Below, piece after piece: positions 772-11,920 of a stretch of 39,638 nucleotides of DNA (position 1 is the stretch's first letter; the number at the start of each line of letters is the position of its first letter). Below the pieces are notes generated by a model. That model saw nothing but the letters and a program-made list of their open reading frames with translations, did not search any database and had not been told where the DNA came from. The DNA is from Syntrophaceae bacterium (GTDB taxonomy: Bacteria > Desulfobacterota > BSN033 > UBA1163): NCBI GenBank assembly GCA_013388645.1, contig JACAEV010000092.1, positions 1 to 39,638 on the forward strand, in the 5' to 3' direction. Position numbers and translations under genes: made by a program.

Positions 772-800
772 TTGACACAATAAACATATTGTATTATGTT
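772..800 (+). promoter_or_regulatory. Probable sigma-70 promoter of the RHH-HEAT-ParA operon
   Basis: A perfect TTGACA at 772-777 is followed after 17 bases by TATGTT (795-800, 4 of 6 matches to TATAAT). TATTAT at 792-797 is a better hexamer but too close. The GTG start of the first gene lies 35 bases further on, behind a TAAGGGGGT ribosome site. Confidence 0.5.
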
Positions 801-834
801 GTAATATATTTAAATTTATTTAAGGGGGTTTTTA

Positions 835-1014
835 GTGCAGAAAAAAGTTGCCCGGACGATCTACATTAAAGATGAGCAGTTAGATGCCTTGAAGAGATTA
901 TCCGAGAAAACCAAAGTCCCCCAGTCTGTTTATGTGAGGGAGGCTTTGGATATGTTACTGGAAAAATATTCTGAACAGTTGAAATTCGAATTCAAAGAAT
1001 ATTTCAAAGGATGA
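835..1014 (+). CDS. Ribbon-helix-helix (CopG/Arc type) DNA-binding protein
   Basis: This small 59-residue protein starts at GTG behind TAAGGGGG. It opens with a basic strand (VARTIYIKDEQL), then a helix LDALKRLSEKT, a turn, and a second helix PQSVYVREALDMLLEKY. That is the usual RHH order: beta strand for base contact, then two helices for dimerisation. The acidic/aromatic tail FEFKEYFKG is short. It is the first gene of the compact operon that continues with the HEAT and ParA genes. Many ParA systems pair the ATPase with an RHH centromere-binding or autorepressor protein (ParG or omega type), so it may autoregulate the operon or anchor ParA cargo to DNA. The fold call is good; the target is unknown. 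Confidence 0.75.
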   Translation: MQKKVARTIYIKDEQLDALKRLSEKTKVPQSVYVREALDMLLEKYSEQLKFEFKEYFKG

Positions 1015-1054
1015 TCTCTTACTAAACATCTCAGTGGTGAGTAGAGAAGGTGAT

Positions 1055-1810
1055 ATGGCAGATCGTTTCCGATTAATTTATCTAAAATCGTCAGGATCAG
1101 AAGAAACAGATTTTAATGTTTCTTCGTCTTCCTCTGGTGACAGAAGGACGGACAGGCAAACCTCTTCTATTCCAGAATTCAATCTCTTAGAAACCATCTC
1201 ATCGGATAGAATTCTAAAACAGGCACAAGCTGACCTGAAACATCCAGATTCAAAAGTCAGGATTTTAGCGATCAAATATTATTTGGAGAAATCTTATCCC
1301 TCCATTCCCCTGTCACTCCTTCAGGAGTTTTTATCAGATCAGGAAGCTGAGATCAGAACAGAAGCGCTTTGTTGCTTGATTAAATTTCGGAGTCCCATCG
1401 TTTTGCCATTATTAAAAAAACATCTCAGAGATAGAGACCCAAAGGTCAGGGTGACGGCCTTAAGGGGGTTGTTCCGATATCAGGAGAAAATTGACTTTTC
1501 TATTCTCCTTCAATTTTTAAGTGACGAATCCATTTGGGTGAGGCGCAAAGTAGCGACTTTATTAGGTTGGGCTCAAATCGATGGTGCTTTACCCATCCTC
1601 GTGGAATTATCAAGGGATCAGAATGCCACGGTTCGAAAGGCCGCTCTTTTTTCTCTTTCCACTCTTTATCCCGATGAGAGCGAGAATCGCTTGATGGAGG
1701 CGATGACCGATTCGGATCCAAATCTTCGAACATGGGCGAGGATGACCCTTGAAAAAATAGCATCCAGGCCCTTGAAAAGAGGAGGGGCTTCCATGAGGGG
1801 ACGGGTTTGA
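1055..1810 (+). CDS. HEAT-repeat protein, possible PomY-like partner of ParA
   Basis: The ATG at 1055 is preceded by AGAAGG; an in-frame GTG at 1034 would add seven residues. The 251-residue protein has a polar, Ser-rich N-terminal stretch of about 60 residues, likely disordered. It then has six consecutive HEAT (PBS-lyase type) repeats, each with the D-x-x-x-x-V/I/L-R signature (for example HPDSKVR, DQEAEIR, DRDPKVR, DESIWVR, DQNATVR, DSDPNLR). The C-terminal tail is basic (RPLKRGG, RGRV). HEAT solenoids bind other proteins and carry no catalysis. The stop overlaps the possible TTG start of parA. In Myxococcus PomXYZ, a HEAT protein (PomY) works with a coiled-coil protein (PomX) and a ParA ATPase (PomZ). 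The same trio of folds occurs here, but orthology is inferred from architecture only. Confidence 0.72.
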   Translation: MADRFRLIYLKSSGSEETDFNVSSSSSGDRRTDRQTSSIPEFNLLETISSDRILKQAQADLKHPDSKVRILAIKYYLEKSYPSIPLSLLQEFLSDQEAEIRTEALCCLIKFRSPIVLPLLKKHLRDRDPKVRVTALRGLFRYQEKIDFSILLQFLSDESIWVRRKVATLLGWAQIDGALPILVELSRDQNATVRKAALFSLSTLYPDESENRLMEAMTDSDPNLRTWARMTLEKIASRPLKRGGASMRGRV

Positions 1811-1827
1811 GAAAAGAAAGAATATCC

Positions 1828-2838
1828 ATGGCGACGCAATCATTACCCCTGATTCAAAAGGCCCAAATTTTAGGAGATATGGTTTACTCGCCAATGGCCT
1901 TTGCAAAGATTCTCGGGATTTCAAGGCAAGAGCTTATCGATAAAGAGGCAAAAGGGACCCTTCCCCCAGCGAAGAGAAATTCTCGTCGCGAACGTTTTTA
2001 TAGACCAGAGGATATAAACAAATATCGACATTTTCTGGGACTTCCCCCCCTCATCCCCTCCGTTCGGAAACAGCTCTTTCTCAACTTTAAAGGAGGAACG
2101 GGAAAAAGTACTATCTCTGCCTCTTATGGTTTTCGTCTTGCCCAAATGGGAGTGCGGACACTCTTGATCGATTTGGATCCACAAGGCCATCTGACCCAAT
2201 GCTTGGGTCTCAACAGTCAACAATTTCCAAAAACTCTTTTCAATGCTCTCATTGAGAAAGAAGAAATTGAAAAGATCGTTGTCAAAACAGATCTTCCCAC
2301 CCTGGACATCATTCCCTCCAACTTGAATCTTTCTCCAGTGGAACTGTCCCTCTTTTCGATGAATTCGAGAGAGTTCCGATTGAGGCGTCTTCTCAGCACC
2401 GTGGAGAAGAACTATGATTTGATCTTGATGGATGCCTCCCCCAGCATCGGTCTTTTAAATCTCAATGCCATCCTCGCCTCCAACGATCTCATCATTCCCG
2501 TTTTAGCCGATTTTCTCTCCTACCATGGACTAAAGATTTTATTCGAAACCCTTTCCACCATTGAAGAAGATTTTGCTTTTGTCTTCGAAAACATCTTTAT
2601 CTTTCTCAATCGCTATAATGAATCCCATCGAATTTGTAAACGCTCGAAGCAGGCGCTGGAAACCCACTATGAAAAGTACCTCCTCAACACGGTGATTCGC
2701 CAGGATACAAAGATTGCAGAGGCGACCAGCCAGGGGACTCCCATCTTCCTATTCGCTCAGTCCTCAAAGGGCGCAGAGGATATCCAGAGCCTCATCGATG
2801 AAATACTCGGACTGAAAGGAGCTGATCATGTCGGATGA
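1828..2838 (+). CDS. ParA/MinD-type ATPase with N-terminal MerR-like helix-turn-helix
   Basis: Residues about 15-72 form a MerR-like winged helix (YSPMAFAKILGISRQELIDK, then a basic wing and YRPEDINKYRHFLGLPP). Next comes a ParA ATPase: deviant Walker A FKGGTGKST near residue 88, A' motif LIDLDPQGH, and Walker B LILMDASPS. The family forms ATP-dependent dimers that bind DNA nonspecifically and are released by a partner that stimulates hydrolysis. The ATG at 1828 gives 336 residues; a TTG at 1807, overlapping the upstream stop and preceded by a GAGGGG, would add seven. The gene overlaps the next one by 11 bases. The neighbours (HEAT protein, two coiled-coil proteins, RHH protein) argue for a chromosomal positioning system rather than plasmid partition: no ParB and no parS repeats are visible. 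Confidence 0.85.
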   Translation: MATQSLPLIQKAQILGDMVYSPMAFAKILGISRQELIDKEAKGTLPPAKRNSRRERFYRPEDINKYRHFLGLPPLIPSVRKQLFLNFKGGTGKSTISASYGFRLAQMGVRTLLIDLDPQGHLTQCLGLNSQQFPKTLFNALIEKEEIEKIVVKTDLPTLDIIPSNLNLSPVELSLFSMNSREFRLRRLLSTVEKNYDLILMDASPSIGLLNLNAILASNDLIIPVLADFLSYHGLKILFETLSTIEEDFAFVFENIFIFLNRYNESHRICKRSKQALETHYEKYLLNTVIRQDTKIAEATSQGTPIFLFAQSSKGAEDIQSLIDEILGLKGADHVG

Positions 2839-3160
2839 ATTCACCAACAACGTCGCACAGAAATTTCCCAATACCCTGAGCCGGGAGCCCGTTGAAAGGC
2901 CTTGGGATGTTGCGGAATCCCGAACCCTCTCTTCTTTGAAGAGACCTACAGAAGAATTGAAGAAAGACGAATTGACGGAACGAATTGATACGCTTTATTC
3001 TGAGCTTCGTTCTTCTTTGACGGTGCGATCTGCCTTAGAATTTGATTTGAAAAAAGCCAATCGCATTCTGGAAGAGGTGAATCGTGTCAAAGGAGAAGTG
3101 GAAAAGATCATTGAAATGTTAAGGGTGATGGATGAATATATGAGAGAACGGATCAAGTGA
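2828..3160 (+). CDS. Small coiled-coil protein 1 of the ParA operon
   Basis: The 110-residue product starts at ATG 2828 inside the end of parA, behind AAGGAG. The first 50 residues are polar and probably unstructured. Residues about 50-105 form a heptad-rich helix (ELTERIDTLYSELRSSL and onward). Its opening DEFTNNVAQKFPN matches DGFDTNVAEKMPK near the start of the next gene. Its helix section LTVRSALEFDL also matches SAQTKRALEMDL there, so the two genes are probably paralogous. I recognise no named family. Translational coupling to parA and a shared N-terminal motif suggest a ParA-interacting adaptor, comparable in position to PomX or McdB partners. Confidence 0.7.
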   Translation: MSDEFTNNVAQKFPNTLSREPVERPWDVAESRTLSSLKRPTEELKKDELTERIDTLYSELRSSLTVRSALEFDLKKANRILEEVNRVKGEVEKIIEMLRVMDEYMRERIK

Positions 3161-3223
3161 TCTCCTTTCCTTTTTCAGAACGAGGGGGGGAGGAAAAGGC
3201 CGAATAGCTGAGGAGGATACAGG

Positions 3224-4054
3224 ATGAAGCTAAGAAGTCAAGCGATCACGGCTGATGGATTCGATACGAATGTCGCAGAAAAGATGCCAAAGATCCGAAA
3301 GCTGGAGGAAGCCTTTCCCCCACCTTTGGAAGAAGAATTTCTTCCGCTGAAAGAAGATCGTCACGAACCCATGATCGAGGGAAGACCTCCTGAGAAGCAG
3401 ATCGAAAGGGAGATGATCTTCGAAACTCCCAAGAAAACGGGCGAGACAGAGCAGAATTTAGATGTCCTCCACTTGATTGAGGATCTCCATGCACAACTTC
3501 TCGCTTCGGCCCAGACGAAGAGAGCCCTTGAGATGGATTTGGCTTCCTATAAGAAGACCATCCATCGATTGTCCCAAGATAATCAGGAATTACATGACCA
3601 ATTGGAGACCTTTCGAAAAGAATACCATAGGCTCAAGGAGGTCCAGTCCGAATCGGATTACCTTCAAGAAGAGAATACAGAAGCCCTTGAAAAAATTAAG
3701 GAGTTTCAACAGGAATTGAAGGACCTGAGACAAGCTCTGAACAAGGCTACCCAGGAAAAAGAGGAGGCCTTCCACCGAATCCATGAACTGGAAGCCCAAA
3801 TGGAGCAAAATGAAGTGGTTAAATTGAAGGGGAAGTTAAAGGAGAGAGAGGCCTCCTTTTTCTCTGAGGAAAGTCGTGAACTTCAATCCAGACTGGAAGA
3901 GGCCCTGGCCCAGAATTTAGATCTGGAGAGAAAGTATGAAAGTTTGAAGAAATCCTTTCACGAGGTGAGAGAATCTCTCACCCTCCTAAGGGATTCCTGT
4001 AAAGCAAATTACTACAACCTGTCGGAGAACCCTGAATCATTAGAAAATCATTGA
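3224..4054 (+). CDS. Coiled-coil protein 2 of the ParA operon, possible PomX-like scaffold
   Basis: This 276-residue protein follows a strong GAGGAGG site. The N terminus has a basic start (MKLRSQ), the DGFDTNVAEKMPK motif shared with the previous gene, and a Pro/Glu-rich linker to about residue 80. From about residue 85 to 265 it is an almost unbroken, highly charged coiled coil rich in E, K, L and Q. It has no signal peptide, membrane segment or catalytic motif. A long C-terminal coiled coil behind a short conserved N-terminal peptide is the layout of Myxococcus PomX, whose N-terminal peptide stimulates the PomZ ATPase. That is an analogy in architecture; sequence homology cannot be claimed here. 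Confidence 0.7.
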   Translation: MKLRSQAITADGFDTNVAEKMPKIRKLEEAFPPPLEEEFLPLKEDRHEPMIEGRPPEKQIEREMIFETPKKTGETEQNLDVLHLIEDLHAQLLASAQTKRALEMDLASYKKTIHRLSQDNQELHDQLETFRKEYHRLKEVQSESDYLQEENTEALEKIKEFQQELKDLRQALNKATQEKEEAFHRIHELEAQMEQNEVVKLKGKLKEREASFFSEESRELQSRLEEALAQNLDLERKYESLKKSFHEVRESLTLLRDSCKANYYNLSENPESLENH

Positions 4055-11539: not shown

Positions 11540-11920
11540 CTAAGTCACTACCTTCTCGGGACTGGTTTGATCCATCTTTTGGTCGGATTTTACCACCATG
11601 TTGGAGTTTCCATCGAAAATCCCACCTTCATGAATTACCAGGATAGGGGTAGAGAGGGTTCCATGTAACTTCCCTTTAGAGTGAATCTCGACTCTTTCTT
11701 TGGCCGCGATTTCTCCTTCTATCATGCCATTGAGGGTTAAGATATTGGTTTCTACTTTCCCTTTGATCACTGCTGTTTCACCAATAATGAGTGTCCCATC
11801 ATGGTAAATTTCTCCCTCCATCTTTCCGTCAAGACGAAATATTCCCTCAGAGATGATTTTCCCATGAAAGGTGGAATCCTTCCCCCCAAAGACATTCATC
11901 TCTTCGATGTTATGCTTCAT
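11540..11920 (-). CDS. Bactofilin (polymer-forming cytoskeletal protein)
   Basis: The 126-residue protein has the bactofilin beta-helix core built from short hydrophobic turns (GKIISEGIFRLDGKMEGEIYHDG, read in parts; LIIGETAVIKGKV; LTLNGMIEGEI). The flanking ends are polar and disordered. Bactofilins polymerise without nucleotides into filaments at the membrane and help set cell shape, polarity or division placement. No transmembrane helix is seen, so membrane contact would be through the short N terminus. The ribosome site upstream of the ATG is weak. It is monocistronic and convergent with tex. Confidence 0.9.
   Translation of the reverse strand: MKHNIEEMNVFGGKDSTFHGKIISEGIFRLDGKMEGEIYHDGTLIIGETAVIKGKVETNILTLNGMIEGEIAAKERVEIHSKGKLHGTLSTPILVIHEGGIFDGNSNMVVKSDQKMDQTSPEKVVT

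Follow-up and report, generated by a model that had tools for sequence, protein, structure and literature searches.

A candidate PomXYZ-type positioning module in a Syntrophaceae bacterium

Organization of the operon

Five genes at positions 835-4054 of contig JACAEV010000092.1 from a Syntrophaceae bacterium (assembly GCA_013388645.1) encode a ribbon-helix-helix (RHH) protein, a HEAT-repeat protein, a ParA ATPase with a MerR-like domain and two coiled-coil proteins, designated here CC1 and CC2. The whole stretch of 39,638 nucleotides that was analysed is referred to as the window. The initial annotation had described the five genes as one compact operon, and the coordinates, open reading frames and domains bear this out. 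The operon probably represents a nucleoid-based ParA positioning module of the PomXYZ type, a system described so far from myxobacteria only (PMC7993993, PMC13170346).

All five genes lie on the plus strand. The RHH gene (835-1014) starts with GTG and encodes 59 residues (Pfam PF12651, RHH_3, 5e-18). It is followed by the HEAT gene (1055-1810, 251 residues; PF13646, HEAT_2, 2e-28), the MerR-ParA gene (1828-2838, 336 residues; AAA_31, 2e-46) and the genes for the short coiled coil CC1 (2828-3160, 110 residues) and the long coiled coil CC2 (3224-4054, 276 residues). CC1 begins 11 nucleotides before ParA ends, and the remaining intergenic gaps are 17-63 nucleotides long. Known upstream DNA amounts to 834 bases because the contig begins at the first base of the window.

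The ParA ATPase

The ATPase motifs of the ParA protein are intact: Walker A spans K88-S94, D117 lies in DLDPQG and K295 in QDTKIAEA. The numbering of PomZ maps on the window ParA gap-free with an offset of 27, so that D90 of the ATP site corresponds to D117 and K268, involved in DNA binding, corresponds to K295. Here and below, the likeness to PomX, PomY and PomZ rests on the published peptide, residue numbers, gene order and domain descriptions rather than on full-length sequences. In structural modelling from 2026, 13 PomZ residues contact the N-terminal peptide of PomX (PomX-NPEP) and 8 contact α5 of PomY; according to that study, PomZ proteins conserve these 21 residues and ParA/MinD proteins do not (PMC13170346). 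The window ParA is identical to PomZ at 10 of the 21 positions (BLOSUM sum 69), with mostly conservative changes at the others, and its relatives are identical at 10-12. The corresponding counts are 3 for Soj from the same genome (BLOSUM sum 18), 2-6 for plasmid ParAs (-12 to 26), 1-5 for other ParA-family proteins and 8 for one other MerR-ParA.

The MerR-like domain occupies ParA residues ~20-66. It resembles HTH_17/MerR_1, is sub-threshold in Pfam and matched in 8 of 17 relatives, and is predicted by the structure model to be a separately folded N-terminal domain. The domain is common to the whole ParA clade. In relatives it starts with METPLY or METSVY, close to the PomZ N-terminus MEAPTY, which was read from a primer (PMC7993993). 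Moreover, the ATP-site Asp of Soj lies at about residue 40, while D90 of PomZ lies ~50 residues later. These six N-terminal residues and the position of D90 are the grounds on which we infer that a shorter version of this domain is probably present in PomZ; ParAs of the window clade have 12-27 more residues ahead of the Walker motif than PomZ.

In a ParA tree built without PomZ, the clade falls together with other MerR-ParAs, apart from Soj and plasmid ParAs, with moderate support; its deep placement is unsafe since the tree has long branches. The MerR-ParA architecture is wider than the module, because a plasmid of Candidatus Manganitrophus carries one together with an ordinary ParB. Among plasmid matches that extend over the MerR domain, this protein (encoded within L046, 3977-5939) is the best, with 35% identity across 95% of the window ParA, and it was rejected as a counterpart of the operon, having a ParB and no HEAT or coiled-coil partner. 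Plasmid partition was likewise set aside, as tblastn against plasmids gave only ParA matches below 60% identity.

It may be asked whether the protein is simply an ordinary plasmid-type or Soj-type ParA, orphaned and standing beside unrelated structural proteins. In its overall fold, and among solved structures in the PDB, it does come closest to Soj/ParA, and yet this already disfavoured explanation is barely credible: the gene order is strictly co-conserved down to 57% ParA identity, ParA and the coiled coil are absent jointly, the contact residues are unlike those of Soj, and in the tree the clade stands apart from Soj and the plasmid ParAs, though with only moderate support. Further, as the initial annotation had claimed, no ParB or parS adjoins the operon. 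It contains no ParB gene, and the window yielded no parS-like site even when up to 3 mismatches were tolerated. Soj and ParB of this genome are encoded as a pair on a separate contig, C247.

Several other loci deserve mention here. A bactofilin-like gene comes next after the chromosomal soj-parB pair (L002, 1444-3669), and a second one lies inside the window (11540-11920); bactofilins organise ParABS in Myxococcus. Another locus of the same genome (L003, 1450-2989) has a gene for a MinD-like ATPase and then one for a DnaJ-plus-helix-turn-helix protein with a RodZ-like N-terminus. Finally, G398, a 6.5 Mb genome of the same phylum, encodes a distant MerR-ParA (E 8e-69) that has no HEAT or coiled-coil neighbour. 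The gene after it (L074, 7500-9101, minus strand) has a TTG start and encodes ~98 residues with a Lys-rich N-terminus, LKAPEKKKPDYKKFIKR. A C-terminal hydrophobic segment of this protein is probably membrane-spanning, and the protein is possibly another ATPase activator, tethered to the membrane.

The coiled-coil and HEAT proteins

The first 22 residues of PomX, MKKAFEQNVSRAKPRLRLGALT, suffice to activate PomZ in Myxococcus xanthus (PMC7993993). Both coiled-coil proteins of the operon begin with a comparable peptide, F-x3-[VI]-A-x-K-[MF]-P, which reads GFDTNVAEKMPKIRK in CC2 and EFTNNVAQKFPN in CC1, where ERPWDV is found as well. The N-terminal consensus of CC2 and its distant relatives is GFD[KRT][NS]VAEKMPK. 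In a start-anchored alignment of the PomX peptide with MKDGFDKSVAEKMPKIQ of the distant relatives, F5, V9, P14, the basic residue 15 and the hydrophobic residue 16 agree, and Phe is residue 5 in both; the basic residue 15 is matched in CC2 only, not in CC1.

This likeness was assessed with a position-specific scoring matrix built from 39 coiled-coil N-termini, against a background of 141,395 windows from local open reading frames and 20,000 shuffles. With all 39 N-termini, the PomX peptide was equalled or outscored by 10 of the 141,395 background windows and 9 of the 20,000 shuffles; with CC2 only, its score was reached by 6 and 1, respectively. When the whole genome of the window was searched at the DNA level with the slightly relaxed pattern F-x3-[VI]-A-x-K-[MFIL]-P, three matches came up, and two of these fall on the CC1 and CC2 starts. 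The PomX peptide had no match among solved structures, and the coiled coil matched only lamin-like coiled coils there.

CC2 has a Glu/Pro-rich linker and a coiled coil from about residue 85. CC1 can be recognised as a truncated CC2 paralogue by its match to the distant coiled-coil profile at 1e-7 (BLASTP E 0.001). Thus, both of the coiled-coil proteins noticed initially are present, but they are paralogues rather than separate parts.

The AlphaFold model of the HEAT protein comprises 12 helices that make up 6 HEAT repeats (predicted local distance difference test score, pLDDT, about 83-97 over residues 50-240), preceded by a disordered N-terminus of ~40 residues. PomY combines six or seven HEAT repeats with a coiled coil, a winged helix and a disordered region that contains α5. 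The HEAT protein is PomY-like in its HEAT array only, because the coiled coil and the winged helix of PomY are missing. Its disordered N-terminus opens with a DRFRLxYLKS motif (1055-1090) that is conserved in the window's family and could be a further docking peptide. Distant HEAT proteins have no such motif and share a Trp-rich C-terminal tail instead. A role in defence was also considered and rejected, as the PADLOC matches were generic coiled-coil and HEAT ones.

Conservation, cargo and relation to known systems

The gene order was examined in the window's family and in 395 sampled genomes of the phylum. The window was assigned to its phylum by the names that its relatives bear ('Syntrophaceae' and 'Deltaproteobacteria' metagenome-assembled genomes); at NCBI the placeholder 'Deltaproteobacteria bacterium' belongs to Myxococcota, but one such genome (G053, which matches locus L043) shares the window's phylum in the genome collection. 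The ParA was found in 14 of the 17 family genomes, and both ParA and the coiled coil are missing from the other three. The RHH, HEAT and CC2 genes adjoin ParA in all 14 carriers, and CC1 does so in 13. Since RHH, HEAT and CC2 accompany ParA in 14 of 14 carriers, the linkage is not due to chance. Close ParA homologues (>550 bits) occur in 26 of the 395 phylum genomes, in three families, and the core order HEAT-ParA-coiled coil is likewise kept in 26 of 395, as well as in other metagenome-assembled genomes. At the distant loci L032-L043 only these three genes are retained, in the same order; their products are 57-65% (ParA), 24-34% (HEAT) and 20-35% (coiled coil) identical to those of the window. 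The conservation of the gene order proposed as a check has therefore been found for the five-gene set in 13 of 14 family carriers and for the three-gene core beyond the family; the window's family has added RHH and CC1 to this core. ParA is the slowly evolving partner, while the HEAT and coiled-coil proteins diverge; the same contrast in rate has been reported for the Pom system, where PomZ is conserved and PomX and PomY are divergent.

The neighbours of the core vary. In the second large family, the module is flanked by a PriA-like gene and a two-component pair. Since the order persists among differing neighbour genes, the three-gene core is portable yet held together. At one distant locus (L032, 1689-6284), it stands directly after ruvC-ruvA-ruvB on the same strand, the names being read from the translations. 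The second large family also has a fourth gene for a coiled coil of 79-80 residues (MDPDTTKKVSDLL...), which overlaps the end of the PomX-like gene and lacks the N-terminal activating motif (L034, 8079-8321; L038, 7933-8175; L041, 7986-8225).

The RHH gene is present in 14 of 14 family carriers and absent from L032-L043. The promoter region ahead of it (772-834, plus strand), a putative RHH operator, bears a TTGACA -35 box and an AT-rich direct repeat of the TATTGTATTATRTTGTATT type over the -10 position, with a promoter scan match at 772-800. The TTGACA box and a direct repeat of the TATTGTATT type over -10 are aligned upstream of RHH in 14 of 14 family loci. The RHH protein begins about 7 residues ahead of its domain and has no long N-terminal arm. 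In the simplest reading, it is probably an autoregulator of the operon. Of the two DNA-binding modules that the initial annotation regarded as additions to a Pom-like core, neither holds as such: RHH, apparently an autoregulator, occurs in a single family, and the MerR-like domain is clade-wide and probably present in PomZ too. The co-occurrence of RHH and ParA genes with repeats at the promoter may also bring to mind type Ib partition of the ParF-ParG kind, in which RHH would bind the upstream repeats as a centromere and ParA would segregate a replicon or a chromosomal region. This is highly improbable: RHH is missing from the distant modules and has no long arm of the ParF-activating type, the peptide of the ATPase-activating type sits on the coiled-coil proteins, the genome already has Soj-ParB, and the neighbourhood is chromosomal (nuo genes).

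The cargo of the PomXYZ-type module is possibly FtsZ or the division site. By analogy with PomXYZ, this is the most plausible cargo, because FtsZ is present in the window's genome, where neither MinC nor MinE was found. It is also conceivable that the same ParA-plus-scaffold machinery positions something else, such as a cytoplasmic multiprotein assembly, a storage body or a signalling cluster held by the HEAT protein. The HEAT and coiled-coil parts evolve fast (about 20-35% identity), as cargo adaptors would, the HEAT protein is without the coiled coil that PomY needs for condensate formation, and the module adjoins unrelated genes in different lineages. Nevertheless, a different cargo, although a serious alternative, seems less likely, given that the PomX-like peptide and PomZ-like contacts indicate the Pom branch, for which no cargo other than the Z ring is known, and that FtsZ occurs without MinC or MinE.

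A number of observations weigh against a PomXYZ-type assignment. The basic residues K13 and R15 of PomX-NPEP are essential for activation; Lys13 is replaced by Met in CC2 and Phe in CC1, with a Lys at position 12, and Arg15 is Lys in CC2 and Asn in CC1. The acidic PomZ contacts are not all kept, with Gln or Lys in the place of some of E248, E256 and E275, and different salt bridges would result. The HEAT protein has neither the coiled-coil nor the winged-helix domain of PomY, and the HEAT proteins of distant relatives are acidic (isoelectric point, pI, 5-6). Finally, the absence of MinC is weakly informative because MinC is rare throughout the phylum: it occurs in 30 of 395 genomes, none of them a carrier of the module, and its distribution was discarded as support, being uninformative alone. 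Because Lys13 is replaced and PomY domains are missing, strict PomXYZ membership is not claimed, and 'works like PomXYZ' is the better-supported statement. Thus, the PomXYZ likeness proposed initially stands as regards the NPEP-like peptides, the PomZ contact residues and the gene order, but as regards the HEAT protein, which lacks most of PomY, only in the HEAT array.

From the observed gene content, linkage and likeness in motif and contact residues, we infer how the module would polymerise, activate its ATPase, move, hold a cargo and regulate itself. The PomZ-like ParA would dimerise with ATP and coat the nucleoid by non-specific DNA binding, and the PomX-like CC2 would polymerise via its coiled coil into a scaffold. 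Docking of the CC2 N-terminal peptide to a groove on DNA-bound ParA dimers would trigger ATP hydrolysis, and CC1, with the same peptide, may supply a second activating or tuning peptide. The HEAT protein, as a reduced PomY-like partner, would bind the scaffold and link it to the cargo. By repeated binding and release, the assembly would move along the nucleoid to an equilibrium position, and RHH would repress its own operon promoter via the repeats over -10.

These data suggest that a PomXYZ-like machine is not confined to myxobacteria, to which the host is distantly related. A bolder proposal, to which we give somewhat less than an even chance, is that Min-less 'Syntrophaceae'-type bacteria harbour a second, reduced PomXYZ-type division-site lineage outside myxobacteria, with a bare HEAT protein for PomY, two paralogous activator scaffolds and a diverged NPEP/pocket pair, and that the system predates myxobacteria or spread beyond them. 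A natural PomXYZ relative in which the HEAT protein is minimal and the activator exists as two paralogues would reveal the essential parts of the system, and diverged NPEP/pocket pairs would serve to test the recent structural model of PomZ activation. For bacteria with FtsZ but neither MinC nor MinE, the module would also be a candidate for the system that places the division site.

Among other ParA systems, McdAB also combines a ParA ATPase with a partner that bears an N-terminal peptide, and it has no DNA centromere. However, McdAB has no HEAT protein, no carboxysome genes are seen here, and McdA is a weaker sequence match to the window ParA than Soj and a lower-ranked fold match. ParF-ParG resembles the operon in having RHH and ParA in one operon with upstream repeats, but the window RHH is not conserved with ParA. 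With Soj/ParA of ParABS and plasmid ParA/RepA the ATPase fold is common, but the operon has no ParB or parS, and its ParA differs in the contact residues. In M. xanthus, pomY (MXAN_0634), pomZ (MXAN_0635) and pomX (MXAN_0636) run, by locus number, in the same order as HEAT-ParA-coiled coil; two NPEP-bearing paralogues and, in one family, an RHH gene are extra here. PomY has 682 residues and the HEAT protein 251, so that most of PomY is missing, but both are basic (pI 9.3 and 9.4). PomX and CC2 are both acidic (pI 4.9 and 5.1) and, although the linker is Ala/Pro-rich in PomX and Glu/Pro-rich in CC2, they share one layout of an NPEP-like N-terminal peptide, a linker and a C-terminal coiled coil.

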